The notes under the pieces are model-generated. The model did not search any database, was not told the origin of the DNA, and saw only the letters and a list, made by a program, of their open reading frames with translations. From Olsenella phocaeensis (GTDB taxonomy: Bacteria; Actinomycetota; Coriobacteriia; Coriobacteriales; Atopobiaceae), in contig NZ_LT635494.1 in assembly GCF_900120385.1 (NCBI RefSeq), positions 1,176,423 through 1,240,422 on the forward strand: a stretch of 64,000 bases of DNA, given 5' to 3'. Both the position numbers and the translations under genes were made by a program. Positions 2 through 37,365 of the stretch are shown piece by piece; position 1 is the stretch's first letter; every line of letters begins with the position of its first letter.

Positions 2-157
2 GACTGGGGCGGGGTCACGGCGGAGGAGCCCGTGGGGAGGCCCGACGGCTGGCTGCGACACTATCGGGAGGGGCGGTCGAGGCGCTGCCGCGAGGGCGGG
101 CGCTGGGTCTGGGAGACGCCGGACGAGCGTCGGAGGCGTCTGGGGCTGACAGTCTAG
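2..157 (+). pseudogene. transposase C-terminal fragment (probable)
   Basis: An open frame runs in from the window edge and stops at TAG 155-157. The last residues (ending DERRRRLGLTV) and the WLRHYREGR stretch resemble the C-terminal tail of IS3-type integrase-core transposases, which often end in a YRR-x-LGL motif. No catalytic residue lies in the visible part, so the assignment rests on the tail alone. Whether the gene is intact to the left cannot be seen. It could instead be the end of an unrelated arginine-rich protein. Confidence 0.4.
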
Positions 158-21433: not shown

Positions 21434-24400
21434 ATGCAGCCAGACTTCTTCGACAACAGGGCGCGCATCGTCAAGGACGACCTTGTCGCCAATATAGCCG
21501 ACGGCGATCGCGTGGCGATAGCCGCGTCGGTGTTCTCCATGTACGCCTATCAGGAACTCGCCACCCAGCTTGAAGGCATCGACGAGCTGCGCTTCATCTT
21601 CACATCGCAGGCGTTCACCAAGCAGCGCCCAGCGCGCGAGAAGCGCGAGTTCTACATCCCGCGCCTTTCCCGCGAGCAGGGCCTTTGCGGCACCGACTTC
21701 GAGATCAAGCTGCGCAACGAGCTCACGCAGAAGGCCGTCGCGACCGAGTGCGCCGACTGGATCCGCCGCAAGGCGCGCTTCCGCTCCTTCGAGGGCGAGG
21801 GGCGCATGAGCGGTTTCATGGATATCGATAAGACGGGCGACAACGTGGCCTACATGCCCTTCGACGGCTTCACCACGCGCAAGCTCGGATGCGACAACTC
21901 CACGGACGTCCCCGACGTGACCATGCGCCTGGACGCCTCCCAGTCGCGCGCCCTGCTCAAGCAGTTCGACGACGCCTGGGGCTCGGGCGAGCTCCACGAC
22001 GTCACCGACGCCGTCATCGACGGCATCACGGCCATGTACCAGGAGAACGCGCCCGAGCTCATCTACTACATGGCGCTCTACCGCATATTCAGCGAGTTCC
22101 TGGACGACGTCTCCGAGGACGTGCTGCCCAACGAGGGGCTGGGCTTCCGCGAAAGCCTCATCTGGAACAAGCTCTACGACTTTCAGAAGGACGCGGCGCT
22201 CGCCATCATCAACAAGCTCGAGACCTACAACGGCTGCATCCTGGCCGATTCCGTTGGCCTGGGCAAGACGTTCACCGCGCTCGCCGTGATCAAGTACTAC
22301 GAGAGCCGCAACAAGGACGTGCTCGTGCTGTGCCCCAAGAAGCTGCGCGACAACTGGATCACCTACAACTCGAACGTCGTGAACAACCCCATCGCAGGCG
22401 ACCGCCTGCAGTACGACGTGCTCTACCACACCGACCTCTCGCGCACGCGCGGCACGTCGGAGACGGGCCTGCCGCTCGACCGCCTGAACTGGGGCGCGTA
22501 CGGGCTTGTCGTCATCGACGAGAGCCACAACTTCCGAAACGGCGGCGACTCGGCGTCGGAAGACAGGATGAACCGCTACCAGCTGCTCATGGAGAAGGTC
22601 ATCAAGCAGGGCGTGAAGACCAAGGTGCTGATGCTCTCCGCCACGCCCGTGAACAACCGCTTCCGTGACCTGCGCAACCAGCTCGCCCTGGCATACTGGG
22701 GCGACCCCACCGGCTGGTCTGAGAAGCTGCGCCTGGAGAACGACATCGAGACGGTGTTCCGCAACGCGCAGACCGTCTACGCCCGCTGGTCGAAGCTCCC
22801 CGCAGAACAGCGCACCACCAAGGCCCTCACCGATATGCTCGACTACGACTTCTTCGAGGTGCTCGACCAGGTGACCGTGGCGCGCAGCCGCAAGCACATC
22901 CAGCGCTACTACGACATGAGCGCCATCGGGCCCTTCCCGAAGCGCCTGCCGCCGATATCGAAGCGCCCCAAGCTCTCGACGCTGGCGAACGCGATCAACT
23001 ACCGCGAGATATACGAGGAGCTGGACTCCCTCGTGCTCGCCGTGTACATGCCGAGCTCGTACGTTCACCCCAGCAAGATGGAGAAGTACGCGAAGATGGG
23101 CGGCGGAGGCAACCTCACGCTGGGCGGCCGCGAGACGGGCGTGCGCCGCCTCATGACGACGAACCTGCTCAAGCGCCTGGAGAGCTCGGTGTGCTCGTTC
23201 CGTCTGACGCTCGAGCGCGTGCTGGCGGCCATGAACGCCGCCCTCGGGACCATAGACGACTACCGCAGGGGCTTGGCGTCGGGCGTCAGCGTGGCCGACG
23301 GCGACCTGCCGGGCGGGTTCGACTTCGACTCCGACGACGAGAGCGGCTTCGAGGTGGGCGGCGCCACGAAGATCCTTGTCGAGGACATGGACTGGATGAG
23401 CTGGGAGCGCGACATCGAGGCGGACGTCGCCGTCATCGAGGTCCTGATCTCGATGGTGCGCGACATCGACCCCGCCTACGACGCCAAGCTCATAGAGCTG
23501 TGCGAGCAGATCCGCGAGAAGTCGCAAGGCCCCATCAACCCGGGCAACCGCAAGGTGCTCGTGTTCACCGCGTTCTCCGACACGGCGGACTACCTCTACG
23601 AGAACGTCTCGGCATTCGCGAAACGAGAGCTCGGCCTCGAGTGCGCCAAGGTTACGGGCGACGGCTGCGCCTGCACGATAACGGCCGTGCCCCCGCATAT
23701 GCAGGAGGTGCTCGCCTGCTTCTCGCCCGCGTCGAAGGAGCGCGACGTGGTGGCGCCGCAGCTTACGGGCTGCGACGTGGACATCGTGGTCGCCACCGAC
23801 TGCATCTCGGAGGGCCAGAACCTCCAGGACTGCGACTACCTGATTAACTACGACATCCACTGGAACCCCGTGCGCATCGTGCAGCGCTTCGGCCGCGTGG
23901 ACCGCATCGGCTCGAAGAACGCCCGCATCCAGCTGGTGAACTACTGGCCCGACGTGGAGCTTGACGAGTACATCAAGCTCAAGGCGCGCGTCGAGGAGCG
24001 CATGCGCATCACCGTGATGACGTCCACCGGCGACGACGACTACATCAACGCCGACGAGACGGGAGACCTGGAGTATCGCCGCCAGCAGCTCGAGCAGATG
24101 CGCGACGAGGTCGTGGACCTGGAGGACGTCTCGGGCGGCGTGTCCATCACCGACCTGGGGCTCAACGAGTTCCGCATGGACTTGGTGGGCTACTACCGCG
24201 ACAACCCCGACATCGACCGGCTTCCGAGCGGCATCAACGCCGTGGTGGAGGGCGACGAGCCCGGCGTCATCTTCGTGCTGCGCAACGTCAACAGCAAGAT
24301 CGACCGCGATGGCGCAAACCACCTGCACCCGTTCTACGTGATTCGCATGGGGTCTGGCGGGTCCGTGGCTCATGGGCACCTGGATCCCAAGGCGGTGCTC

Positions 24401-24667
24401 GACGACATGCGCCTTTTGTGCCGCGGCAAGTCCGAGCCCGACATGGCACTCTGCCGCGCCTACAACCGCGAGACCAAGAACGGCCGCGACATGCGCCGCG
24501 AGGCGGGGCTCTTGCGCGACGCGGTGGCATCAATCGTGGACTCCAAGGAGGAGTCCGATGTCGACAGCTTCTTCGGTGACGGTACGACGGGCTTCCTGGA
24601 GAACGACATCGAGGGCCTCGACGACTTCGAGCTGGTGTGCTTTCTGGTGGTGAGGCCCAGATGCTAG
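21434..24667 (+). CDS. SNF2-type helicase with N-terminal PLD-like region
   Basis: A 1077-residue protein. Residues about 10-170 resemble the degenerate phospholipase D-like domain that precedes many helicases of this type, but I see no HxK catalytic motif. The motor has ILADSVGLGKT (motif I, about residue 270), VVIDESHNF (II, about 361), MLSATPVNN (III) and, in the second RecA domain, VLVFTAFSD and IVQRFGRVDRIGS (VI, about residue 817). These match HepA/RapA-like SNF2 translocases. It overlaps the DUF4391 gene by seven bases and is followed by type III mod and res genes, so a role in phage restriction is likely. The ribosome site is weak and separated from the start by an A8 run. Confidence 0.85.
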   Translation: MQPDFFDNRARIVKDDLVANIADGDRVAIAASVFSMYAYQELATQLEGIDELRFIFTSQAFTKQRPAREKREFYIPRLSREQGLCGTDFEIKLRNELTQKAVATECADWIRRKARFRSFEGEGRMSGFMDIDKTGDNVAYMPFDGFTTRKLGCDNSTDVPDVTMRLDASQSRALLKQFDDAWGSGELHDVTDAVIDGITAMYQENAPELIYYMALYRIFSEFLDDVSEDVLPNEGLGFRESLIWNKLYDFQKDAALAIINKLETYNGCILADSVGLGKTFTALAVIKYYESRNKDVLVLCPKKLRDNWITYNSNVVNNPIAGDRLQYDVLYHTDLSRTRGTSETGLPLDRLNWGAYGLVVIDESHNFRNGGDSASEDRMNRYQLLMEKVIKQGVKTKVLMLSATPVNNRFRDLRNQLALAYWGDPTGWSEKLRLENDIETVFRNAQTVYARWSKLPAEQRTTKALTDMLDYDFFEVLDQVTVARSRKHIQRYYDMSAIGPFPKRLPPISKRPKLSTLANAINYREIYEELDSLVLAVYMPSSYVHPSKMEKYAKMGGGGNLTLGGRETGVRRLMTTNLLKRLESSVCSFRLTLERVLAAMNAALGTIDDYRRGLASGVSVADGDLPGGFDFDSDDESGFEVGGATKILVEDMDWMSWERDIEADVAVIEVLISMVRDIDPAYDAKLIELCEQIREKSQGPINPGNRKVLVFTAFSDTADYLYENVSAFAKRELGLECAKVTGDGCACTITAVPPHMQEVLACFSPASKERDVVAPQLTGCDVDIVVATDCISEGQNLQDCDYLINYDIHWNPVRIVQRFGRVDRIGSKNARIQLVNYWPDVELDEYIKLKARVEERMRITVMTSTGDDDYINADETGDLEYRRQQLEQMRDEVVDLEDVSGGVSITDLGLNEFRMDLVGYYRDNPDIDRLPSGINAVVEGDEPGVIFVLRNVNSKIDRDGANHLHPFYVIRMGSGGSVAHGHLDPKAVLDDMRLLCRGKSEPDMALCRAYNRETKNGRDMRREAGLLRDAVASIVDSKEESDVDSFFGDGTTGFLENDIEGLDDFELVCFLVVRPRC

Positions 24668-25281
24668 GGCTTCCGAGCACGACTGAGGTGGGCCGCCGTA
24701 TACCCAAGGAGGCCTTCTACGGCCACCTGAAGGTGAGCGCCACGCTACGCCAGTCCTTCATCGACGACGTCGAGTGCTTCGTGGTCGCGAACTCCATAAA
24801 GACCTCTACGACCGGCATACCGGACGGCGAGCGCGTGCACGAGGTGCTTGTGGTGCAAGTGGCGCTCAAGGCGCGTCGCATCCCCGAAGAGGTGCTGGTC
24901 CTTGTGGCTCAGGCGAACCCCCACAAGCTGCTGTTCGTCTGCACCCGTGACGGCGAGGCGTGCCTTGCGGTGATACTCAAGAGGCTCGTCGTGGGGCTCT
25001 GGCGTTCTTTTGATGACCTCGCACTCGATGTGAACGCGTGCAGCATCGACGCGGTGTGGGACTCACTTGCGTCGCAGGTGGCCTATGGGGACGATGGCAG
25101 CAGCGCCGAAACCGTGGAGGAGCGTTTCGAGGCGGATTCAAGGCTCAAGGCGCTTCGAGATGAGCTAGCGCGCGTAGAGGCGCGCGGGCGCAAGGAGCGG
25201 CAAGTTGCGCGCAAGAATGCGCTGTTCGATAAGGTAAAGGAACTCAAGTGGCAGATTGCCGCCATAGAGGAAGGTAAATAG
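24661..25281 (+). CDS. DUF4391 protein
   Basis: A 206-residue protein of the DUF4391 type, identified from length, context and the pattern EVLVVQVALKARRIPEE followed by KLLFVCTRDGE. Its C-terminal 50 residues are a charged helix with heptad-like spacing (LRDELARVEARG, FDKVKELKWQIAAIEE), likely a coiled coil. The biochemical role is unknown; it recurs, as I remember, beside SNF2 helicases and type III mod genes. It starts at ATG 24661 inside the helicase stop region and its stop abuts the mod ATG, so all three are translationally coupled and probably form one complex or pathway. Confidence 0.7.
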   Translation: MLGLPSTTEVGRRIPKEAFYGHLKVSATLRQSFIDDVECFVVANSIKTSTTGIPDGERVHEVLVVQVALKARRIPEEVLVLVAQANPHKLLFVCTRDGEACLAVILKRLVVGLWRSFDDLALDVNACSIDAVWDSLASQVAYGDDGSSAETVEERFEADSRLKALRDELARVEARGRKERQVARKNALFDKVKELKWQIAAIEEGK

Positions 25282-27321
25282 ATGGAAAAGATTGAGCTGG
25301 GCACGCCCGACGGCACCGTGGAGAACATCGAGCGCCTTGCCGAGCTGTTCCCGCAGGTTGTGACTGAGGTGCAGGACGAGAACAACGAGATTAAGCGTGC
25401 CGTCGATTTCGATGCGCTCCGTGATCTTCTGGGCGATGTCGCCGAGGAGGGACGAGAGCGCTATCAGTTCACGTGGCCGGGCAAGCGCGAGGCCAAGGCC
25501 GAGGCGCGCCGTCCAATCTTCAAGACCATGATTCCTGAGCCGGAGAAGTCGAAGGACTGGGATACCACCGAGAACCTCTATATCGAGGGCGACAACCTCG
25601 AAGCCCTCAAGATCCTGAAGGAAACCTACGCCGGCAAGGTGAAGCTCATTTACATTGACCCGCCGTACAATACGGGTCACGACTTCGTGTACGACGATGA
25701 CTTTGCCAAGTCGCGTGGAGAATATGACGCCGAGAGCGGCGATTTCAATGAGGAGGGCGGCCGCCTGGTCGCCAACACCGAGAGCAACGGTCGCTTCCAC
25801 AGCGACTGGTGCTCGATGATGTATCCGAGACTGCTTCTTGCGCGCGACCTGCTCGCGGCCGATGGCGCCATCTTTATCAGCATTAGTGATGCCGAATCAC
25901 GCAATATGCGAAATCTATGCGACGAGGCATATGGGGCTGGCTGTTTTGTTGCCTGCGTGACTTGGCAGAATAATACTTCTCCGAGAAATGATGCCAAGGG
26001 CATTCCGTATGTTACCGACAGTGTTCTCATTTACTCAAAAAATCCAGGATGGCAACCACTGCATCTGCCTAGAACTGATGAAATGGATTCCCGTTATGAA
26101 AGCCCCGATGGAGACCCCCAGCCGTGGACATCAAGTCCTTATCATGCTCCCAGTGCAAAAACGCACAAAGGGATGGTATACGCTGTTCAGCATCCATTTA
26201 GTGGCGATTTGATTTATCCACCCGCTGGAAGACATTGGTCACATGAGCAATCTAAAGTTCTGGAATTGATGAATGAGTGGGCGCCATATCAGCTTAAGGC
26301 AATTGATGACGTTGAAGTGCGAGCTGACATCTGCGGCGTTGCAGCGGATGTGATGCCCGAGATACCGGCTGTCATACTCGCAGTACCAAAGCAACAAGCG
26401 GCTGAGATTGCAAGCGCTAGATTAAACGCTGGTAATTGGCCCGAGTTCTACTTCACTGGCAATGGACAAGGTGGACTCCGAATTAAAAAGCACCTTGATA
26501 TGACCCGAGGCAAGGTCCCAACAACCCTATGGCTTGCAAGTGATGTGGGGACGAACACTGAGGCCACAAACGAGCTCAAGGCGCTTTTCGACGGCTCCGC
26601 TCCCTTCGACACGCCCAAGCCTGTGCGCCTCATGAGGCGCATCCTCGACATCGCCTCCTCTAAGGACTGCACCGTGCTCGATTTCTTCTCGGGCTCGGCT
26701 TCCATGGCTCAAGCCGTTATGGAGAAGAACGCTGAGGACGGCGGGAACCGCCGATTCGTGCTTGTGCAAATTCCCGAGAAGACCACAGGCCAGTTCTCCA
26801 CGCTGACCGAAATCGGCGAGGAGCGCATCCGTCGCGCAGGTGCGAAAATCGCCGCAGGCATCGACAAGGAAAACGAGCAGCTCGAGCTCGGTGCCGAGCC
26901 TAAGTCCTATCCCGACCTTGGGTTCCGCGTGCTGCGCATCGACTCCTCCAATATGAAGGACTCCTATCTCAAGCCAGGCGAGACGACGCAGGCGGGCCTG
27001 TTCGACCAGATCGACAATGTGAAGGAGGGGCGCTCCGACCTGGATTTGCTCTTCGAGGTGCTGCCAAAGCTCGGCATTCCGTACTCCGCGAAGATTGAGG
27101 AGCGCATGCTTGCCGACAAGAAGGTCTTTTTCGTTGATGGCGACAAGTTGGCGGCCTGCTTCGATGCGAACGTTGGCTCCGACACCATCGAGGAAATGGC
27201 GAAGGCCAAGCCCTGGTACGCCGTCATCCGCGACTCGTCCATGGCTGGCGACGCCACGCACGCCAACTACGAGGAGCTGTTCCGCACCTACAGCCCCGAC
27301 ACCGTTCCCCAAGTGATCTAG
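25282..27321 (+). CDS. mod: type III restriction-modification DNA methyltransferase (Mod)
   Basis: A 679-residue adenine methyltransferase of the beta class. The catalytic motif DPPYNTGHDFVYDDDF precedes the SAM-binding motif VLDFFSGSASMAQAV, the order typical of type III Mod. Between them lies the target-recognition region (about 25900-26560), which is visibly poorer in GC than the ends of the gene. The N-terminal region links to the DUF4391 gene with no gap, and the res gene follows after ten bases. Mod fixes the recognition site and protects host DNA; with Res it forms the nuclease complex. No repeat tract suggesting phase variation is visible in the gene. Confidence 0.92.
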   Translation: MEKIELGTPDGTVENIERLAELFPQVVTEVQDENNEIKRAVDFDALRDLLGDVAEEGRERYQFTWPGKREAKAEARRPIFKTMIPEPEKSKDWDTTENLYIEGDNLEALKILKETYAGKVKLIYIDPPYNTGHDFVYDDDFAKSRGEYDAESGDFNEEGGRLVANTESNGRFHSDWCSMMYPRLLLARDLLAADGAIFISISDAESRNMRNLCDEAYGAGCFVACVTWQNNTSPRNDAKGIPYVTDSVLIYSKNPGWQPLHLPRTDEMDSRYESPDGDPQPWTSSPYHAPSAKTHKGMVYAVQHPFSGDLIYPPAGRHWSHEQSKVLELMNEWAPYQLKAIDDVEVRADICGVAADVMPEIPAVILAVPKQQAAEIASARLNAGNWPEFYFTGNGQGGLRIKKHLDMTRGKVPTTLWLASDVGTNTEATNELKALFDGSAPFDTPKPVRLMRRILDIASSKDCTVLDFFSGSASMAQAVMEKNAEDGGNRRFVLVQIPEKTTGQFSTLTEIGEERIRRAGAKIAAGIDKENEQLELGAEPKSYPDLGFRVLRIDSSNMKDSYLKPGETTQAGLFDQIDNVKEGRSDLDLLFEVLPKLGIPYSAKIEERMLADKKVFFVDGDKLAACFDANVGSDTIEEMAKAKPWYAVIRDSSMAGDATHANYEELFRTYSPDTVPQVI

Positions 27322-27331
27322 GGGAGCCGAC

Positions 27332-30300
27332 ATGAAGTTCAAGTTCAAAGTACAGCAGTACCAAACCGACGCCGCGGATGCGGTGACCTCGGTCTTCGAG
27401 GGGCAGCCCAACCAGGGCGCCTCCGTCTACCTGCGCGACCTGGGCCGCAAAGCCAAGCGCGCGCAGGGCGAGATTGACTTCGGCGACGAGAGCACCGAGG
27501 GCTACGCCAATGCGCCCGTCGCGCTTTCGGGCGCCGACATACTGGCAAACGTGCGCGCGGTGCAGCGACGCAACCAGATCCCCGAGTCGGAGGAGCTCTT
27601 CTGCGGCATGGGAGCCTGCCAGCTGGACGTCGAGATGGAGACGGGCACCGGCAAGACCTACGTCTACACCAAGACGATGCTCGAACTCAACCGCCTGTAT
27701 GGCTGGTGCAAGTTCATCGTGGTGGTGCCTTCGGTCGCCATCCGCGAGGGCGTTGCCAAGAGCTTGGAGAACACGCAGGAGCACTTCTTCTCCCAATATC
27801 ACAAGAAGATCAGGTTCTTCATATACGACTCGGACAACCTGACCGAGCTGGATGCGTACTCCCAGTCGAGCGACGTCAACTGCATGGTCATCAACATGCA
27901 GGCGTTCAACGCTTCCATGAAGGAGGGTGCCAAGAACAAGGCGGCGCGCATCATCTTCGATGAGCGCGACGAGTTCGGCAGCCGCAGGCCCATCGACGTC
28001 ATCGCTGCGAACCGCCCCATTGTCATCTGCGATGAGCCCCAGAAGATGGGAAAGAAGGGAGGCGCGACCCAGAAGGGCATCGCCCGCTTCAACCCGCTGT
28101 TCGTGCTGAGCTACTCGGCAACTCACAAGGAGAAGCACGACCTGGTGTATGCCTTGGACGCCCTGGACGCCTACAACCAGAAACTCGTCAAGCGCATCGA
28201 GGTGAAGGGCTTCGCTCTCAAGAACATGCGCGGCACCGACGGCTACCTGTACCTGCGTGATATCGTGGTCTCCAAAAACCGCGCACCGGAGGCCGTTCTC
28301 GAGTTCAAGTGCATGGGGTCTGGCGGCAAGGTGCGAAAGAAGACCGCGCGGTTCGGCGAGGGCGACAGCATCTACGACGCCAGCGGCTCGACGAAGCTAG
28401 AAGCGTACCGCGGCTACACCATAGCGAGCGGCAACGACGGCGTGGTTCCGCCACAGGACGGACGCCCAGGCTACGTGCGCTTTCTGGACAGCTCAATCGG
28501 GGACGACGGGCACATCTATATCGGCGAAGTCTACGGCGACTCAGCCGCCGACGACATGCAGCGCGTACAGATTCGCGAGACAATCCTGAGCCATCTGCAG
28601 AAGGAGGAGGCGCTGTTTCGTCGCGGAATCAAATGCTTGAGTCTTTTCTTCATCGATCAGGTGGCGAAGTACCGTGACCTCTCCGGCAACGGCGAAACAG
28701 TGGGCTACGGCAAGATCTTCGAGGAAGAGTACGAGGCCATCGTCTCCGACAGATTGAAGCACCCGACGCAGGACGACATCCTCGACCCCTCCTACGCGCA
28801 GTACCTCGGGCGATTCGAGGCGTACTCGGTGCACTCCGGCTACTTCTCTGTGGACAAGAAGGGCAACGCCGTCGAATCGAAGGCCGAGAAGAAAGCGGAG
28901 CGCGAGGACGGCATCGGCATCAACGACGACGACGCGAAGCGCGCCTACGACCTGATCCTTCGCGATAAGGAGCGCCTGCTTTCGTTCGATGAGCCCGTAC
29001 GCTTCATCTTCAGCCACTCGGCGCTGCGCGAGGGCTGGGACAATCCGAACATCTTCCAGATCTGCACGCTCAAGGAGTCCGGCTCTGAGACAAGCAAGCG
29101 CCAGGAGGTCGGTCGCGGCATGCGACTGGCAGTCGACCAGGACGGCAACCGTCAGGATGCCATACTGCTGGGACCCGACGAGGTACACCGCGTGAACTTG
29201 CTCACCGTGATCGCGTCAGAGAGCTACGAGACGTTCGTGAAGGATTTGCAGACCGATATAAGCAAGAGCCTGCGCGAGCGCCCGAGGAAGGTGGAGATGA
29301 ACCTGTTCAGCAGGCGCGACGTCGTGCTCGACGGCGAGACGGTCTCCTTCACCGAGGAGGAGTCGAAGCGCATTTACAAGGCTCTTTACAAGTGCGACCT
29401 CATCGACGACGACGACAAGCCGACCGCCGAGTTCCGCAAGGCTGTCGAGGACGGCACCTTCGTGGAGTACTTCGTCGTGAAGCTGCCCGAGGGCATCGCC
29501 GACGCCGCACACGCCAAGGCGGTCGAAGCGCTGGTGAGAAGCATCTACGACGCGCACGCGCTCGACGGCATGATCGGGCGCGCCCAGGAGAAGATCACCG
29601 AGAACACGCTGACCGATAACTTCGCCAAGCGCGAGTTCAAGGAGCTGTGGGCGCGCATCAACCGCAAGCACGCCTACACGGTGAGCTTCTCGGACGACGA
29701 GCTGAGGCGCAAGTCGATAGAGCGCATCAACAGTGACCTACGCGTGAGCAGGCTGCAGTACACCCTGACGGTCGGCGGGCAGAAGTCACAGGCAACGCGC
29801 GACGAGGTGCAGGGCGGCTCGTCGTTCGACCGCACGCAGACCGAGACCCGCGACGTCGATGCTGGCACCGCGTCCGTGAACGTAACCTACGACCTCGTGG
29901 GCGAGGTGGCGCAGGCCGCTGCCATTACGCGCAGGAGCGCCGCGGTGATTCTCGCCGGCATCGACCCCAACGTGTTCGAGCTCTACCGCGTGAACCCCGA
30001 GGAGTTCATCAAGAAGGCAGCTGCGCTCATCGTATCGGAGAAGGCGACGATGGTGGTGGAGCACATCAGCTACCACGAGATCGATGACGTCTACGACGAG
30101 GCTATCTTCACTGAGCGCATGCCTGACAACGCGAGCAAGGCATATGAGGCGAAGAAGAACATCCAGCGCTTCGTGTTCCCCGACTCGGATGGAGAGCGCA
30201 AGTTCGCCGAGGATATGGATGCCGCCGCGGAGGTGGCGGTCTACGCCAAATTGCCTCGAACGTTCCAGATTCCCACGCCGGTGGGCAACTACGCCCCAGA

Positions 30301-30514
30301 CTGGGCCATCGCCTTCAAGGAAGGCAGCGTGCGCCATGTGTTCTTCGTCGCCGAGACTAAGGGCACCATGGACACGATGGAGCTCTCCGGCGTGGAAAAC
30401 GCCAAGATCGCCTGCGCCAAGAAGCTCTTCAACGAGATGAGCACCAGCGACGTGCGCTACCACAACGTGGCAACGTACGAGGACCTGCTCGAGGTGATGG
30501 GCAGGATGAGCTAG
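27332..30514 (+). CDS. res: type III restriction endonuclease subunit (Res)
   Basis: A 1060-residue ATP-dependent translocase-nuclease. Helicase motifs are METGTGKTYVYTKTMLEL (I, about residue 105), IVICDEPQKMG (II), LSYSATHKEKHDLVY (III) and RQEVGRGMRLAVDQDG (VI). The C-terminus carries a PD-(D/E)xK nuclease: GNYAPDWAIAF followed by FVAETKGTMD, giving Asp near residue 990 and the E-x-K pair. All active-site residues are present. GGGGAG lies before the start. It works with Mod: foreign DNA with unmodified sites triggers ATP-driven movement and cleavage. Confidence 0.92.
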   Translation: MKFKFKVQQYQTDAADAVTSVFEGQPNQGASVYLRDLGRKAKRAQGEIDFGDESTEGYANAPVALSGADILANVRAVQRRNQIPESEELFCGMGACQLDVEMETGTGKTYVYTKTMLELNRLYGWCKFIVVVPSVAIREGVAKSLENTQEHFFSQYHKKIRFFIYDSDNLTELDAYSQSSDVNCMVINMQAFNASMKEGAKNKAARIIFDERDEFGSRRPIDVIAANRPIVICDEPQKMGKKGGATQKGIARFNPLFVLSYSATHKEKHDLVYALDALDAYNQKLVKRIEVKGFALKNMRGTDGYLYLRDIVVSKNRAPEAVLEFKCMGSGGKVRKKTARFGEGDSIYDASGSTKLEAYRGYTIASGNDGVVPPQDGRPGYVRFLDSSIGDDGHIYIGEVYGDSAADDMQRVQIRETILSHLQKEEALFRRGIKCLSLFFIDQVAKYRDLSGNGETVGYGKIFEEEYEAIVSDRLKHPTQDDILDPSYAQYLGRFEAYSVHSGYFSVDKKGNAVESKAEKKAEREDGIGINDDDAKRAYDLILRDKERLLSFDEPVRFIFSHSALREGWDNPNIFQICTLKESGSETSKRQEVGRGMRLAVDQDGNRQDAILLGPDEVHRVNLLTVIASESYETFVKDLQTDISKSLRERPRKVEMNLFSRRDVVLDGETVSFTEEESKRIYKALYKCDLIDDDDKPTAEFRKAVEDGTFVEYFVVKLPEGIADAAHAKAVEALVRSIYDAHALDGMIGRAQEKITENTLTDNFAKREFKELWARINRKHAYTVSFSDDELRRKSIERINSDLRVSRLQYTLTVGGQKSQATRDEVQGGSSFDRTQTETRDVDAGTASVNVTYDLVGEVAQAAAITRRSAAVILAGIDPNVFELYRVNPEEFIKKAAALIVSEKATMVVEHISYHEIDDVYDEAIFTERMPDNASKAYEAKKNIQRFVFPDSDGERKFAEDMDAAAEVAVYAKLPRTFQIPTPVGNYAPDWAIAFKEGSVRHVFFVAETKGTMDTMELSGVENAKIACAKKLFNEMSTSDVRYHNVATYEDLLEVMGRMS

Positions 30515-30523
30515 GCAACGCTT

Positions 30524-31657
30524 ATGGACCATAAGGAAAACCAGGAAAACGCAGAGCGTTCGATTTATGAGCAGTCTCTGAAAGCTGCGAGGGCAAAAGG
30601 CGGAGAAGCGAGACGGAATGTCGCCCGACTGTCGGGCGACATCCGCTCATTCGATAGACCCGATATTGTCATCACAGCCGAAAGCGGAAAAAGAATAGTC
30701 GGTATAGAGCACTTCCAAGTTGACCACCATATCGGGAGGGGCAAGAAGGTTGAATCTAAGTCCGCAAGGTTCTCTTCAGATGCAGAGCGGTTTCGAAGGC
30801 GACACGAGGATGCAGCTCGCAGGGGCGCCCTGACAGAAGAGGCTTACCGAGGGTTTGGCGATTTGATCAGCCAGGCGATACGGGAGCACTCGAACGCCTG
30901 CGTTGACGACATCAGCACTTCGCTCGACGCGGGACTGTTCGGCAAAGACGGTCGCGGGCATGCGTTCAAGCTCGACGTGTATCGCGAGAATATAGCGCAG
31001 ATTGACGCCAATGCCGATATTCAGCTTGGATTCCTGATCGAGCTCCATACGGATTTGCATCAGTGGTTCCTTAATGATGGGTTTAAGGAGACCAGGGTAT
31101 CTCCAGGTCAGTTCCCAATAAGTTGCGAAGCCTATGAGCTTCTCAAGAAAGCATCGGCTCACGTTGATTGGATCGTGCTTGCGTTTTGCCCGCTTTACGG
31201 CGACGAGGTAAGAGACACTGCGATTATCAGATGCTACAACGGCATGTTCGAAACGAGCGCCGCCCGACAAGGCATGATCCAGACACAATATTTAGGCCTT
31301 GGAATAGAAGCGCCTTTCGGCAAGCAGGATAGACAAGGAGAGGTTGAGTTCGGCGTCGGAAACGACGGTGTTGATTATCTGGTCGAAAACACTTCCGAGC
31401 AGATGGACGCCATCGAGTTGTTCATCAACGCGGTAAGCGGAGCCGCCGAAGCAATCAATCTGGCGCGGAAGGGAAAACCCTTTGCTGCGACGACGTCCGT
31501 TCAGCTTGCCTACGACATAGCAAAAGACTCCTTGAAGCACAGAAACGGGAATGTTGAGCCGCAGGATGTCCTTAAGGCGATTGGCGGAATGAATCCATCA
31601 GAGAAGAGCGCGCGGATGGAGAATTGGCGAAAGCGCTGGCTCGCCGATAGCGTATAG
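30524..31657 (+). CDS. unrecognised 377-residue protein of the restriction operon
   Basis: I do not recognise this family. It starts nine bases after the res stop, in the same direction. The N-terminal 100 residues hold FDRPDIVITAESGKRIVGIE followed by HFQVDHH, a spacing like PD-(D/E)xK nucleases (PD, 10-20 residues, then E near a strand) but with the usual Lys replaced by His. The middle is mixed alpha/beta with VDWIVLAFCPLYGDEVRD. The C-terminal part is helical, ending in MENWRKRW. No membrane segment or signal peptide is seen. Its GC content is lower than that of its neighbours by eye, suggesting separate acquisition. A nuclease-like accessory effector is possible but unproven. Confidence 0.6.
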   Translation: MDHKENQENAERSIYEQSLKAARAKGGEARRNVARLSGDIRSFDRPDIVITAESGKRIVGIEHFQVDHHIGRGKKVESKSARFSSDAERFRRRHEDAARRGALTEEAYRGFGDLISQAIREHSNACVDDISTSLDAGLFGKDGRGHAFKLDVYRENIAQIDANADIQLGFLIELHTDLHQWFLNDGFKETRVSPGQFPISCEAYELLKKASAHVDWIVLAFCPLYGDEVRDTAIIRCYNGMFETSAARQGMIQTQYLGLGIEAPFGKQDRQGEVEFGVGNDGVDYLVENTSEQMDAIELFINAVSGAAEAINLARKGKPFAATTSVQLAYDIAKDSLKHRNGNVEPQDVLKAIGGMNPSEKSARMENWRKRWLADSV

Positions 31658-31717
31658 CTCAGCTTTCGATTGATGCGGACGAAGCGCTCTGCGCGCCAAC
31701 GATTTGATAGGAATGCG

Positions 31718-32647
31718 ATGAAATACAACCTCGATAAACTCAAGAAAGTAGAGCTGCGCGATGTATGGCCCCATGAGGCTCTCGATTTCACCAAGTGGCT
31801 CTCCGATGAGCCCAACCTTGCCATACTGAGCTCAGCAGTCGGCATCGAGCTCGAGCTCATAGAGACCGAGTCATCGGTGGGCTCGTTCAACGTTGACATC
31901 TATGCGCAGGAAGCCGGCACCGGACGCAAGGTGATCATCGAGAACCAGCTCGAGGACACCAATCACGACCACCTAGGCAAAGTAATCACTTACGCCGCCG
32001 GCAAGGGCGCCGAGGTCGTCGTGTGGGTAGTGGCACGCGCACGCGACGAGCACCGTCAGGCCATCGAGTGGCTCAACCAGCACACCGACAGCGATTTCGG
32101 GTTCTTCCTAGTGGAGATAGAGCTGTGGTCCATCGGAGACTCCTTGCCCGCCCCGCGTTTCAACGTAGTCGAGCAGCCTAACGAGTGGACGAAGGCAATC
32201 AAGCTCAGCGAGGGCCTCTCCGAGACCGAGCGCGTCAAGCTCTCGTACTGGACAAAGTACCGCGAGCAAGCACAGGCATCGCCCGAGTTCCTGAAGGTGT
32301 TCAACCCGCAGAAGCCCTCGAAAGACCATTGGACCACGTTGCGCTGCGGCACGTCTGCCTACCACATCGCGCTGCTTATAGACACGCAGCACGGCAGAAT
32401 CGGCATCGAGTTCTACGCGCCCGACGACAAGGAAATCGGCCACAAGGCCATCGACAACACCAAGTTGTTTGAAGAGCGACTCGGTCTTACAGCTACGCCT
32501 TTTGACGCCAAGAAGGCATCGGGGCTTCGCTTCTACAAAGACGGCTGCAAGATCAAGAACAACGAGGCCGCCTGGCCGAGATTCATATCTGAGCAGCTCG
32601 AATGGGCTCTCGCCATGAAGAAGCTAATTGCCGAGCTGGGGCTTTAG
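31718..32647 (+). CDS. DUF4268 protein with nuclease-like N-terminal domain
   Basis: About 309 residues from ATG 31718, which has AGGA seven bases upstream; ATG 31670 has no such site. The N-terminal half has GSFNVDIYAQEAGTGRKVIIENQLEDT, a D-(x)n-E-x-Q arrangement close to the PD-(D/E)xK fold, then HDHLGKVITYAAG and VVVWVVA, as in DUF91/NucS-like relatives. The C-terminal half has HIALLIDTQHGRIGIEFY and the LFEERLGL segment of DUF4268. These proteins are often found beside restriction systems. Its stop faces the stop of the MobC-like gene with three bases between. The nuclease activity is inferred from motif shape only. Confidence 0.72.
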   Translation: MKYNLDKLKKVELRDVWPHEALDFTKWLSDEPNLAILSSAVGIELELIETESSVGSFNVDIYAQEAGTGRKVIIENQLEDTNHDHLGKVITYAAGKGAEVVVWVVARARDEHRQAIEWLNQHTDSDFGFFLVEIELWSIGDSLPAPRFNVVEQPNEWTKAIKLSEGLSETERVKLSYWTKYREQAQASPEFLKVFNPQKPSKDHWTTLRCGTSAYHIALLIDTQHGRIGIEFYAPDDKEIGHKAIDNTKLFEERLGLTATPFDAKKASGLRFYKDGCKIKNNEAAWPRFISEQLEWALAMKKLIAELGL

Positions 32648-32650
32648 GCG

Positions 32651-33076
32651 TTAATCGCGTCCCATATCGAAGATACTTGCGGTGTTGGAACCTGCATCCA
32701 TAATGGACGTTGCCGGCTCCTCCAAAGGCACAGCTTGCTGCGATGCCTCAGCCGTCGGCGCGTCAACCCCCTCGCCGAGTGCCAGGAAGAACCCCACCAC
32801 GAGCTCGACCCTCTGCTGCAGGGACTCACTCAGCTCGCCGTAGGAGGCTATCAGGCGCACTTCCTTGGCCAACTCCGCCATCGAGTCCTTCAACGCCTTC
32901 TGCACGCTCACAGAGGGCCTCACCTCAACCTGGGTATCGGTCAGCTTGGCGATGACGTAGTCCTGCCTGCTCATGCCGCTCCAGGCCGCCATCTCGCATA
33001 TGAGCTTGTGCTCCTCGGGCGTGCAGCGGAACGCCATCGTCTTGCTGCGCTTGCGGGCGCTGTTATCGCACGGCAT
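32651..33076 (-). CDS. RHH/MobC-like accessory protein of the island
   Basis: A 141-residue protein. SKTMAFRCTPEEHKLICEMA followed by WSGMSRQDYVIAKL resembles the ribbon-helix-helix start of MobC-type relaxosome proteins (CTPEE and AGMSRSDYI motifs). The middle has a helical stretch rich in Leu and Glu; the end is low-complexity. The start GTG-free ATG 33076 lies five bases after the integrase stop, so it is the third gene of a xis-int operon. No relaxase is present in the island, so it may instead be an integration or regulatory accessory. The longer upstream frame in this reading phase is an artefact of the integrase gene. Confidence 0.6.
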   Translation of the reverse strand: MPCDNSARKRSKTMAFRCTPEEHKLICEMAAWSGMSRQDYVIAKLTDTQVEVRPSVSVQKALKDSMAELAKEVRLIASYGELSESLQQRVELVVGFFLALGEGVDAPTAEASQQAVPLEEPATSIMDAGSNTASIFDMGRD

Positions 33077-33081
33077 CCCTC

Positions 33082-34152
33082 TCACCCCCTCGCCCCGTCG
33101 AGCGCGGCGGCCATCTCGTCCTGCTTCGTGGGGAACAGGTGCGCGTAGCGGTAGGTGATGTCCACCGCCTCGTGGCCCATGCGCTCGGCGATGGCCAGCG
33201 CGGAGAAGCCCATCTCGATCAGCAGGCTCACATGGCTGTGGCGTATGTCGTGCACGCGGATGCGCTTCACGCCCGACGCCTTGCAGCCGCGCTCCATCTC
33301 GTGGGCCAGGAAGTGCTTGGTCACGGCGAACAGGCGCTCGTCGGGGGCGACGTCGTCGCGCATCTCGATGAAGTCCGCCATCTCGTCGCGCAGGAAGGCG
33401 GGCATGACGATCGTGCGCACCGACTTGGGCGTCTTGGGGTCGGTCACGGTGTTCACGCCGCGGAGGCTCTGGTACGACTTGTTGATGCGCAGCCGGGAGC
33501 TCTCCAGCATGAAGTCGGACGGCGTGAGCGCCAGAAGCTCGCCGCAGCGTATGCCCGTCCAGTACAGCAGCTCGAAGGCGTGGAACGACAGCGGCTTGTC
33601 CATGACTGCCTCGCTGAACCTCAGGTACTCGTCCTTGGTCCAGAATTGCATCTCGCCGCCCTTCTTCGAGCCCATCTTGTCGACCCTGCGCACAGGGTTG
33701 TCGGTGAGGCCGTAGTAGCGCTCGGCGTGGTTGAAGATGGCGTTCAGCTGGTTGTTCACCGTGCGCAGGTACGTCGGCGCCCAGGGCTTCCCGTCGGCGT
33801 CCCGGTGCTCGGTGAGCTCGTTCTGCCACCTGATGACGTCGATCGGCCTCACGTCGCACATGCGCATGTCCCCGAAGAACGGCACGAGCTTGTCGTTGAT
33901 GATGTACTCCTTGGTGATCCACGCGTGCTCGCGTATGCGGGGCCTCACCTCCGAGGCGTACACCTCAACGAACTCGGAGAACGTCATGTCCATGGCCCCG
34001 CCGTTAAGGCTCTTGAACTGGCTCTCCCACACTGCGGCCTCCACCTCGGAGGAGAAGCCGCGCTTCGTCTTGTGGCGCTTCGAGCCGCGGGCGTCGCGGT
34101 AGTAGCACTGCACGTAGAACGTGCCGTTGCTGTCGTCCTTGTACACGGGCAT
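33082..34152 (-). CDS. int: tyrosine recombinase/integrase
   Basis: A 356-residue integrase that would insert and excise the island. An N-terminal arm-binding domain (FYVQCYYRDARGSKRHKTKRG) leads to a core-binding domain (about 60-165) and a catalytic domain. The catalytic residues are visible: Arg in TGIRCGELLAL, the HxxR box in VHDIRHSHVSLLIEMG, His in RMGHEAVDI and Tyr in the following TYRYAHLFP. It is intact. The gene starts one base after the excisionase stop. Its likely target is the 3' end of guaA, which borders the island. Confidence 0.93.
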   Translation of the reverse strand: MPVYKDDSNGTFYVQCYYRDARGSKRHKTKRGFSSEVEAAVWESQFKSLNGGAMDMTFSEFVEVYASEVRPRIREHAWITKEYIINDKLVPFFGDMRMCDVRPIDVIRWQNELTEHRDADGKPWAPTYLRTVNNQLNAIFNHAERYYGLTDNPVRRVDKMGSKKGGEMQFWTKDEYLRFSEAVMDKPLSFHAFELLYWTGIRCGELLALTPSDFMLESSRLRINKSYQSLRGVNTVTDPKTPKSVRTIVMPAFLRDEMADFIEMRDDVAPDERLFAVTKHFLAHEMERGCKASGVKRIRVHDIRHSHVSLLIEMGFSALAIAERMGHEAVDITYRYAHLFPTKQDEMAAALDGARG

Positions 34153-34153
34153 G

Positions 34154-34357
34154 TCAGTCCACCTCCGGGAAGTACAGGGCGTCGAAGACGTCGCTTCGAG
34201 CGCGCCCGCGGATGACCACGCGCCCGCGCGCCTCCTGCTCGGCGTTTATCCTCCTGATCACCTCGTAGGCGCTGCCTTTCTTGATCCTCAGCAGCTCCGC
34301 GACCTCGTCGGCGTCCAGCATGTGCGGCCTCGGCGTCTTCGCCACCTTCTCGTCCAT
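34154..34357 (-). CDS. small HTH excisionase-like protein
   Basis: A 67-residue protein with MLDADEVAELLRIKKGSAYE followed by VIRRINAEQ, the winged-helix pattern of excisionase/AlpA-type proteins, and a basic stretch GRVVIRGRARSDVF. The start ATG 34357 has GGGAGGA five bases upstream. It is the first gene of the xis-int operon and probably sets the direction of recombination. Its promoter faces that of the XRE repressor. Confidence 0.75.
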   Translation of the reverse strand: MDEKVAKTPRPHMLDADEVAELLRIKKGSAYEVIRRINAEQEARGRVVIRGRARSDVFDALYFPEVD

Positions 34358-34376
34358 GGTTCCTCCCATCAATAGC

Positions 34377-34466
34377 GTACGGATACGTACGGTTTACAGA
34401 TTCAGAGTAAACGTACATATCTGTACTGTCAATAGAATTGCGTACATTTGCGTACGCTGATAAGAT
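34377..34466. promoter_or_regulatory. divergent island switch with three GTAC-N6-GTAC operators
   Basis: GTAC occurs at 34377 and 34387, at 34413 and 34423, and at 34442 and 34452: three pairs, each exactly ten bases apart. For the xis operon, TTGACA (minus, 34427-34432) and TACTCT (34404-34409) are separated by 17 bases, and pair 2 fills that spacer. For the repressor, TTGCGT (34438-34443) and TAAGAT (34461-34466) are also 17 apart, and pair 3 fills that spacer. Pair 1 lies just downstream of the xis -10. The XRE protein is the likely binder. Confidence 0.8.
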
Positions 34467-34497
34467 GGGCGGGTACGTATTTCCAGGAGGAGGGCGC

Positions 34498-34911
34498 ATG
34501 TCCGCAGGCGAGAACATAAGGCGTTACCGCAAGTTGCGGGGCATGACGCAGGCGCAGCTGGCCGAGGCCGTCGGCCTGACCGAGGGGGCCGTTCGCCACT
34601 ACGAGAGCGGCATCCGCGCCGTGAAGCCCGAGCTGCTCGAGTCCATCGCCGATACGCTCGGCGTGTCCGTCAACGCCCTCAAGGATTACGGCGTCGAAAC
34701 CGCAGGCGACCTCATGTCGCTGCTCGTGCGGCTCGAGGACTCCTTCGGCATCGTGCCCGCAGCCGACGGCACGGGTCTCTCCCTGAACCCCAAGGCGCCG
34801 CACGCGCCCAAAGCCGCGATGACGATCGAGCTGTGGGCAGAGAAGCGCGCGCAGCTCGAGAACGGCGAGATCGACGCCGACGAATACGAGGACTGGAAAG
34901 CCTCGCTGTAG
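34498..34911 (+). CDS. XRE-family repressor of the island
   Basis: A 137-residue regulator. Residues about 1-62 form a Cro/cI-type helix-turn-helix (ENIRRYRKLRGMTQAQLAEAV and GLTEGAVRHYESGIR). The C-terminal part ends in a conserved ELWAEKRAQLENGEIDADEYEDW pattern, cut here as ELWAEKRAQL and DEYEDWK, found in related regulators. ATG 34498 is preceded by AGGAGGAGG. It is divergent from the xis-int operon. GTAC-pair operators lie inside both promoters, so it should repress excision and itself, like a prophage repressor. Confidence 0.85.
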   Translation: MSAGENIRRYRKLRGMTQAQLAEAVGLTEGAVRHYESGIRAVKPELLESIADTLGVSVNALKDYGVETAGDLMSLLVRLEDSFGIVPAADGTGLSLNPKAPHAPKAAMTIELWAEKRAQLENGEIDADEYEDWKASL

Positions 34912-34999: not shown

Positions 35000-35537
35000 T
35001 TACTCCCCATTGTGTGCGGGAGCATTTCCGGCGTGTCTAGGGAGTAAATAACGCGGTGGCTTACATGGCGGCACATGGCAGTACGCCGCGGCATTTCCCC
35101 TGATTACTCCCGTTTTCCTCGAGACGGTGAGATTCTTTACTCCCCATTAACGACCTGGGGAAACGCTGTGCAGAGACCGCCGGAAAGCCTATTGAGTTCG
35201 ATTTGAGTTTCACGGGCCCCGAAACGGCCTATTTTCGCCCTCGGGGACAAAAACCGCGCGTCCACTCACTCGGGATAAATCCTTACTCCCGTTCCTCCGA
35301 ATGCCGCCCCGTGCCTTGCCGTCTTGAAACACGGGGGAGTAAATGGCGAAATCGCAGGTGAAAGGGAGTAAAACGGCAAAGAAAAAGCCCCCGTCCCAGC
35401 ACGGGAACGGAGGCTCAATTATCGTATTTACTCACCGCCGTCGCTGGCGGCTTTGCCATGACTCTCGTACGAAACGAAACTCAGCGGCACAGTGCGGTAC
35501 TCAAAAGTGCAGGTCAGAACCCTATCGGCTTACTCCC
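35000..35537. repeat. cluster of TTACTCCC octamers next to guaA
   Basis: TTACTCCC occurs at 35000, 35104, 35137, 35283 and 35530, and its complement GGGAGTAA at 35040, 35336 and 35365, eight copies in about 540 bases. Sites 35000 and 35137 share the longer TTACTCCCCATT. The last copy is the guaA 3' end itself (including the stop). The gene-free stretch 34912-35529 has no coding evidence and low similarity to its neighbours. These look like integrase arm-type sites or iterons. Confidence 0.7.
35383..35416 (-). terminator. guaA-side terminator (minus strand)
   Basis: On the minus strand AGCCTCCG pairs, with small mismatches, with the CGGGGGCT just before a TTTTT run (35383-35387). It lies about 115 bases past the guaA stop and would end guaA transcription inside island-side DNA. 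Confidence 0.6.
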
Positions 35538-35547
35538 ACTCTATCGT
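35530..35547. other. candidate island attachment core (guaA 3' end)
   Basis: The last codons of guaA (minus strand, ending GAGTGGGAGTAA) form the island-gene border. guaA 3' ends are known integration sites for genomic islands with tyrosine integrases. I did not find the matching copy at the left end near 21000, so the core is inferred. Confidence 0.35.
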
Positions 35548-37122
35548 AGCGGGCGGTTTGGGCGTCACGTCGTAGACGACCCGGTTCACGCCCGGCACCT
35601 CTCCCACGATGCGGCTGCTGATCTTGCCCAGCACCTCGTAGGGAAGCTTCGCCCAGTCTGCGGTCATGGCGTCGCTCGACTCCACGGCGCGCACGATGAT
35701 CGGTCGCGCGTACGTGCGCTCGTCTCCCATGACGCCGACGCTCTTGATGTCGGGCAGCACGGCGAAGTACTGCCAGCAGCTGTGCTCGCTGTTCCTCTCG
35801 CCCGTCTCCTCGAAGAGCCGCGCGTTGTACGCGTCCAGCTCCTCGCGCACGATGGCGTCGGCGTCGCGCAGGATGTCGAGCTTCTCGGGCGTGACGTCAC
35901 CGATGATGCGGATGGCCAAGCCGGGCCCGGGGAAGGGCTGCCTGTACACCATGCCCGCAGGCAGGCCCAGGCTCACGCCCAGCTCGCGCACCTCGTCCTT
36001 GAAGAAGTGGTCCAGGGGCTCGATGAGGTCGAAGTGCACGCCCTCGGGGAAGGAAATCAGGTTGTGGTGGCTCTTGATGGTCGACGCCTTGCCGCCCGTC
36101 TTGCGCGCGCCGCTCTCGATGATGTCGGGGTAGATGGTGCCCTGCGCCAGCATCTCCACCCCACCGATCTTCTGGGCCTCCTCGAAGAAGACCTTCCAGA
36201 ACTCGGTGCCGATCAGGCGCCTCTTCTGCTCGGGCTCGGTGACGCCGGCCAGCATCCTGGCGTAGCGCTCCTCGGCGTGCACGTGCACCAGGGGCACGTT
36301 GAACTGCTCGCGGAACACCTGCTCCACCATCTCGGGCTCGCCCTTGCGCAGCAGGCCGTGGTTGACGAAGACGCAGGTGAGCTGGTCACCGATGGCGCGG
36401 TGCACGAGAGCCGCGACCACCGAGGAGTCGACGCCGCCAGAGAGCGCCAGGATCACCTTGCGCTCCCCCACCGCCTCGCGGATCTCGGTGACCTTCTGCT
36501 CGACGATGTTGTCCATCGTCCAGCTCTCCTCGAGCCCGCAGACGCCGAAGAGGAAGTTCCTCAGCATGTCCTGGCCGTGCTCGGTGTGGCGCACCTCGGG
36601 ATGGAACTGCGTGGCATAGATGTTGCGCTCGGGGCACTCCATGGCGGCGATGGGGCAGGTCTCGGTGCTGGCGGTAACCACGAAGCCCTCGGGCACCTGG
36701 CTCACGGCGTCGCGGTGACTCATCCACACGGTCTGGCCGCCCTCGGGCGTGCCGTCCAGGATGCGCGCCTCACCCTTGCGCACGAGCGTCGCGGGACCAT
36801 ACTCGCCCTTCTCGGTGTGACCGACCCTGCCGCCCAGCTTGACGGCCATGATCTGCTGGCCGTAGCAAAAGCCCAGGATAGGGATGCCCAGCTCGAAGAC
36901 GGCGGCGTCCATGTCAGGCGCGTCGTCCGCATACACGGAGGCGGGGCCACCGGACAGGATGATGGCGGAGGGTGCCATCTCCCTCAGCTCGTCGGCAGAG
37001 ATGTCGCAGGGAACGATCTCTGAGTAGACGTGCAGGTCACGTACCCTGCGCGCGATCAGCTGGCCGTACTGGGCGCCAAAGTCGAAGACCGCGACGAACT
37101 GCCCTGGCCTGGTAGCCTTCAT
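35530..37122 (-). CDS. guaA: GMP synthase (glutamine-hydrolysing)
   Basis: A 530-residue enzyme that converts XMP to GMP with glutamine and ATP. The N-terminal class I glutaminase has ILGFCYGQQIM with nucleophile Cys86 and the catalytic His-Pro-Glu in QFHPEVRH. The ATP pyrophosphatase domain starts with LALSGGVDSSVVAALV. The C-terminal dimerisation domain has GMVYRQPFPGPGLAIRI and ends PATIEWE, as usual. Start ATG 37122 has GGAG upstream; the longer frame is not family-like. Its 3' end is the probable integration site of the island. It complements the purine salvage genes downstream in the window. Confidence 0.96.
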   Translation of the reverse strand: MKATRPGQFVAVFDFGAQYGQLIARRVRDLHVYSEIVPCDISADELREMAPSAIILSGGPASVYADDAPDMDAAVFELGIPILGFCYGQQIMAVKLGGRVGHTEKGEYGPATLVRKGEARILDGTPEGGQTVWMSHRDAVSQVPEGFVVTASTETCPIAAMECPERNIYATQFHPEVRHTEHGQDMLRNFLFGVCGLEESWTMDNIVEQKVTEIREAVGERKVILALSGGVDSSVVAALVHRAIGDQLTCVFVNHGLLRKGEPEMVEQVFREQFNVPLVHVHAEERYARMLAGVTEPEQKRRLIGTEFWKVFFEEAQKIGGVEMLAQGTIYPDIIESGARKTGGKASTIKSHHNLISFPEGVHFDLIEPLDHFFKDEVRELGVSLGLPAGMVYRQPFPGPGLAIRIIGDVTPEKLDILRDADAIVREELDAYNARLFEETGERNSEHSCWQYFAVLPDIKSVGVMGDERTYARPIIVRAVESSDAMTADWAKLPYEVLGKISSRIVGEVPGVNRVVYDVTPKPPATIEWE

Positions 37123-37365
37123 TGCTGCTCCTGTTCTGTGCGCAAGCTCTTGTCCGCGGCGCCGGAGACCCGAGCCCGACACCAACGCCACCTGTTTTTC
37201 CGGTTCATTGTAGACCAGCGCAAAGGCCGAGTCGGATGCCTGAGAGCGTTTGTGTGCTTCATGCGCGCGCAGGCCACTGCGACTATTATTAGGTGGTTAT
37301 ACATGGAGGAATTCATACCCGGATTCCCTGCCCCAAAGAGCACGGTTAACGGTAAAGGAGCCCCC

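Follow-up and report, generated by a model that had tools for sequence, protein, structure and literature searches.

Which protein do the three pairs of GTAC that lie between an XRE-type repressor gene and a divergent excisionase-like gene serve, and what would that protein control through them? The locus is part of a 64,000-nt window of Olsenella phocaeensis (GCF_900120385.1, NZ_LT635494.1:1,176,423-1,240,422, forward strand), the whole stretch of DNA analysed here, and the gap between the two genes is a 140-bp intergenic region (34358-34497). Each pair is an exact GTAC-N6-GTAC whose half-sites begin 10 bp from each other: predicted operator O1, GTACGGATACGTAC (CGTACG-N4-CGTACG, 34377..34390), O2, GTACATATCTGTAC (34413..34426), and O3, GTACATTTGCGTAC (34442..34455), none of which is assigned a strand. 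The spacing between the operators is 36 and 29 bp and the whole array spans 79 bp, so the first-pass annotation was exact in reporting three GTAC pairs, ten bases apart, within 80 bases. A seventh GTAC at 34473 is unpaired and is not kept throughout the close relatives. We consider it very probable that the three paired sites are dyad operators, 14 bp long, and that the protein using them is the XRE repressor of 34498-34911, which would silence the xis-int genes and limit its own synthesis.

The array is far denser than chance predicts. GTAC-N6-GTAC occurs four times in the 64-kb window against 0.19 expected, three of the four copies are in this gap, and no shuffle reached four. When the 140-bp region was simulated 200,000 times with a first-order Markov model, no version contained three GTAC dyads, and at least three copies of any exact 4-6-4 dyad appeared in 11 of 100,000 Markov versions. 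Across the 2.28-Mb genome, CGTAC-N6-GTAC is found at these three sites and in one other place only, which argues that the sites serve the element rather than a chromosomal regulon. Scanning the window for Rfam families and tRNAs returned no match.

The candidate DNA-binding protein is a 137-aa XRE/HTH_3 repressor (34498..34911, plus strand) with a recognition helix at residues 29-36 (E29, G30, R33, H34). Its predicted model is of high quality (mean pLDDT 93) and places residues 29, 30 and 34 on this helix, where they align with Gln28, Gln29 and Gln33 of the 434 repressor. Fold searches gave useful matches for the HTH domain only (SinR, P22 c2 and 434). All Pfam and NCBIfam matches fall on this N-terminal part, and no S24/LexA-type peptidase was found among them. 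The C-terminal half is modelled as two strands and long helices; it may dimerise or bind an anti-repressor. No ImmA-like metalloprotease gene was found among the neighbouring proteins scanned beside the repressor.

The divergent genes are all on the minus strand. They begin with the excisionase-like gene (67 aa, 34154..34357), whose product has the ICEBs1 excisionase model as its best named match, at 44 bits against a model cut-off of 100. The tyrosine integrase gene (356 aa, 33082..34152) follows one base past the stop of the xis-like gene, and a gene for a NikA/MobC-like mobilisation protein (32651..33085) overlaps the end of int. There is no Cro gene opposite the repressor, this position being taken by the xis-like and integrase genes. 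The same genome carries a second repressor, 43% identical to the first (G000:C1:1007808-1008185; L002, L037), the N-terminal part of which looks truncated and which has no operator set upstream.

Two divergent promoters are predicted around the sites. The xis-int promoter (minus strand) has the −35 hexamer TTGACA (34427..34432), abutting O2, and the −10 hexamer TACTCT (34404..34409), and O2 fills the 17-bp spacer between them, as had been claimed. The repressor promoter (plus strand), placed by comparison with relatives, consists of TTGCGT (34438..34443) and TAAGAT (34461..34466), again with a 17-bp spacer. O3 does lie in this spacer, as the first-pass annotation also stated, occupying most of it together with the last two bases of the −35 hexamer, and O1 is found where it had been described, downstream of the xis-int promoter. 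The −10 hexamers of the xis-int and repressor promoters are weak (3/6 and 4/6), and neither promoter rose above threshold in a strict consensus scan of the window. Since this generic scan missed both, their placement was tested by conservation instead. Of 62 relatives with three sites, 57 have a recognisable −35 hexamer directly next to O2, at the offset seen here; in 56 of these 57, TAnnnT lies 17 bp from it, and the mean −10 match in the same set peaks at 17-bp spacing. In most groups the repressor promoter has a TTG-type −35 four bases ahead of O3, also with a 17-bp spacer. Comparison thus bears out the placement of the promoters. Judging from the hexamers, transcription would start at ~34397 (xis-int) and ~34473 (repressor), 76 bp apart, and O1 would occupy roughly positions +8 to +21 of the xis-int transcript. 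Only 5 bp separate the two −35 hexamers.

Relatives of this locus also bear out the sites and their geometry. Copies at 91-95% identity are found in Coriobacteriia (Olsenella, Collinsella, Slackia, Senegalimassilia, Gordonibacter, Paraeggerthella and others) and in records named Bifidobacterium asteroides, Arcanobacterium haemolyticum, Gleimia europaea and Varibaculum vaginae, and all those inspected have three sites at −121/−85/−56. Beside repressors that are 54-70% identical, the sites remain at a spacing of 36/29 or 38/28, with a single mismatch in O2 of one locus (L202). In a comparison of eight regions, namely the window and seven relatives with 54-70% identical repressors, the invariant columns number 23 of 24 in the half-sites versus 26 of 80 elsewhere in the intergenic region (Fisher p 1.4e-8). 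The search beside related repressors that the first-pass annotation had suggested therefore finds the motif kept at both levels of identity, and finds its letters changing with the helix. One close homologue with a GTAC-type helix (L199) has changed O1 and O2 and retains GTAC in O3 only; decay and shifted specificity are candidate readings of its operators. Viral contigs, phages and plasmids gave HTH-level similarity only, or full-length matches of at most 38%, and were left out of the operator comparison.

The most interesting aspect of the switch is the specificity series that appears across the family. The sample consisted of 100 distinct upstream regions of repressor homologues, searched without a preset motif. 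At least three dyads of one half-site with gaps of 4, 6 or 8 were present in 59, 63 and 54 regions, respectively, compared to ~3-5 in shuffles; the enrichment at the three gaps is one dyad read at three widths. Looser motif scoring mixed registers at palindromic GTAC sites and was replaced with a spaced triplet score. By this measure, a two- or three-site set with one half-site at N6 exceeded the 99% shuffled score in 64 of the 100 regions, and an integrase homologue diverges from the repressor in 62 of these 64 loci. The absence of a significant set from the other 36 regions is due partly to asymmetric half-sites, partial genes and other contexts; the asymmetric sites of the A34 group and of some S34/N34 groups fall below threshold.

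The half-sites found in the family are GTAC, GCAC, GAAC, GTTC, TCAC, ATAC and AAAC, and they follow residues 29/30..34 of the repressor: EG..H goes with GTAC, ES..N with GCAC, DA..N with GAAC, DS/EP..N with GTTC, ES..S with TCAC, K34 with ATAC and Q34 with AAAC. Among these upstream regions, which are related and in which the GTAC clade proper has one origin on the C-terminal tree, residues 29, 30 and 34 predict the half-site in 64/64 regions and in 25/25 clusters formed at 80% identity (permutation p 5e-5), with residue 34 by itself accounting for 17/25 clusters. A tree-aware pair test of half-site versus helix residues had too few independent changes to reach significance, which is why permutation at the cluster level was used. 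Four repressors (L205, L206, L209, L211) stand apart from the GTAC clade on the C-terminal tree, yet have His34 and one GTAC-N6-GTAC about 50-60 bp upstream; this is a second pairing of His34 with GTAC, and one that may be independent of that clade. Because the letters of the sites follow the XRE recognition helix, the sites are best read as XRE operators and as inverted repeats, and their assignment to the adjacent 137-residue protein is strongly supported by this coupling.

The genes controlled would belong to a mobile element. A conserved module extends from ~32657 to ~35545 and comprises the NikA-like gene, the integrase, the xis-like gene, the repressor and a set of GGGAGTAA copies, followed by the end of guaA (35530..37191, minus strand). 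Seven copies of GGGAGTAA in both orientations, at 35000, 35040, 35104, 35137, 35283, 35335 and 35364 (35000..35371), are candidate integrase arm sites, and all or nearly all of them are found at matching offsets in relatives. The 3' end of guaA, GAGTGGGAGTAA, borders the module and is a candidate attachment core; the last codons of the gene (35530-35537) themselves include GGGAGTAA. The GGGAGTAA copies and the guaA end are probable arm sites and core of the integrase; the 12 bp of the guaA end were not found again as an exact match elsewhere in the genome, where they could have served as the left attachment site. With its tyrosine integrase and an end at the guaA 3' terminus, the module has the makings of a guaA integrative mobilisable element. 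The 2.9-kb module is 99.6-99.9% identical among several hosts. In Actinobacteria of gut and animal origin it adjoins guaA, and the cargo to its left differs between carriers. In the window this cargo (21434-32647) encodes an HKD+SNF2 helicase-like protein (PADLOC C3a139), a type III methyltransferase and restriction enzyme, a 377-aa protein with no family assignment and a PDC-S11/DUF4268 protein.

How would the switch work? At O2, a bound repressor dimer would lie over the xis-int spacer; together with O1, just past the start, this would block RNA polymerase and keep the genes for excision and integration silent. At O3, a dimer would lie over the spacer of the promoter from which the repressor itself is transcribed, and would limit repressor synthesis. 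The promoters are back to back, and with −35 hexamers only 5 bp apart the polymerases on them should exclude one another. Loss of the repressor would release xis-int, and the element beside guaA could then excise. Given that int and the gene for the ICEBs1-Xis-like protein sit together under the controlled promoter, and beside guaA, an excision switch is likely.

It is improbable, although less so than the other alternatives considered here, that the XRE protein binds these sites mainly to autoregulate or activate its own gene, with xis-int under other control. One operator does lie within the repressor's own promoter, and activation of PRM is a further role of the lambda and 434 repressors. 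However, O2 fills the xis-int spacer in 56 of 57 relatives, a position expected to block polymerase, and O1 is on the xis side as well. That the GTAC pairs are arm or xis sites of the integrase or excisionase, and not XRE sites at all, is very improbable: they adjoin xis-int, and directionality factors do bind to repeats close to att, but the agreement between site letters and the XRE helix in every cluster would be unexpected for such sites. In addition, a Xis relative was detected beside none of 6 GAAC and 2 of 12 GCAC site sets, the sites being present anyway, and GGGAGTAA at the guaA end is a better candidate for the integrase arm.

The palindromic nature of GTAC raises the further idea that the pairs are direct repeats or a methylation/restriction signal that involves no repressor dimer. 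GTAC reads identically on both strands, and the element encodes a type III restriction-modification system; type III systems, however, recognise asymmetric sites. Sister repressors have AGCAC-N6-GTGCT, AGAAC-N6-GTTCT and CTCAC-N6-GTGAG at the same positions, and the inverted, non-palindromic half-sites of sister elements (GCAC, GAAC, GTTC, TCAC) show that the GTAC pairs are dyads and not direct repeats, which leaves this idea scarcely credible. For the same reason, the 'unusual self-complementary half-site' to which the first-pass annotation drew attention has no special meaning. GTAC is one of at least seven specificities within one repressor family, its self-complementarity being incidental.

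The switch that we favour, with the XRE repressor acting on xis-int and on itself, is of a known kind, combining a three-operator arrangement of the 434/lambda type with ICEBs1-like control of xis. Similar to the OR region of 434 and lambda, it has three operators between two divergent promoters, here deduced from sequence and conservation. The 434 operator is ACAA-N6-TTGT, and the Olsenella sites are likewise 14 bp long, with 4-bp half-sites and N6. The HTH domain resembles that of the 434 repressor by sequence and those of P22 c2 and SinR by fold, and the half-site is predicted by the equivalents of 434 Gln28, Gln29 and Gln33 on helix 3. Unlike in 434 and lambda, the genes controlled would be xis-int rather than a lytic operon, no Cro gene is seen, and both the half-site letters and the 36- and 29-bp spacing of the operators are different. 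Another difference from lambda CI is that no CI-type peptidase/oligomerisation domain was found in the repressor.

In ICEBs1, xis is controlled by ImmR/ImmA, the repressor holding the excisionase and downstream genes off (PMC6540685). The arrangement of repressor and xis found here fits this system, and the best, if below cut-off, match of the xis-like protein is to the ICEBs1 excisionase model. Here, however, the integrase is within the controlled xis-int operon, and no ImmA-like protease gene was noticed in the surroundings examined. Among guaA elements, ATE-1 of Trueperella pyogenes is an integrative mobilisable element with tet(W) that occupies the 3' end of this gene (PMC5704250). By description, it resembles the present element in its tyrosine integrase, its position at guaA and its actinobacterial host. 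ATE-1 carries tet(W), whereas the cargo in the window consists of restriction-modification/defence genes instead. Tn5801, a guaA-integrating and putatively conjugative ICE of Gram-positives with conjugation genes and tet(M) (PMC4844618), shares the guaA end as target, and no link to the present repressor was found. In the papers searched, no guaA element carrying this repressor is described from Coriobacteriia or Bifidobacterium, and no account of the repressor family was found.

In several carriers, a gene for a Tet(W)-like ribosomal protection protein lies within 10 kb of the module (L046, L048, L051-L054, L057, L060, L066); these carriers are Coriobacteriia, Bifidobacterium, Arcanobacterium and Varibaculum records. 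Identity over the left 10 kb exceeds 99% between Olsenella, Collinsella, B. asteroides, A. haemolyticum and Varibaculum records. Release of the switch would bear on the movement of guaA-side islands, since a near-identical module is present in several hosts and several of its copies lie near a Tet(W)-like gene. A 2026 survey does not assign tet(W) of many Actinomycetota to its IME_Rho_tet family, and suggests that ATE-1 or elements related to it may account for part of this (PMC12904643).

On balance, we favour the view that a specificity series has arisen naturally in this family: on a fixed three-operator promoter scaffold, three helix residues have switched the half-site between seven or more sequences, giving a readable XRE code and possibly regulatory compatibility groups among actinobacterial integrative elements. 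The grouping by compatibility or strict immunity is weakened by genomes that contain two elements sharing GTAC specificity (G056, G274, G400). The code yields a testable rule, in that altering repressor residues 29, 30 and 34 should alter the operator predictably.

Some copies of the repressor gene are damaged. In B. moukalabense (L070) the gene is broken and the GTAC-type sites are still visible. Two other loci (L034, L035) contain repressor remnants that lack the first ~41 residues; the DNA upstream of them is identical in both genomes and resembles part of another integrase gene.
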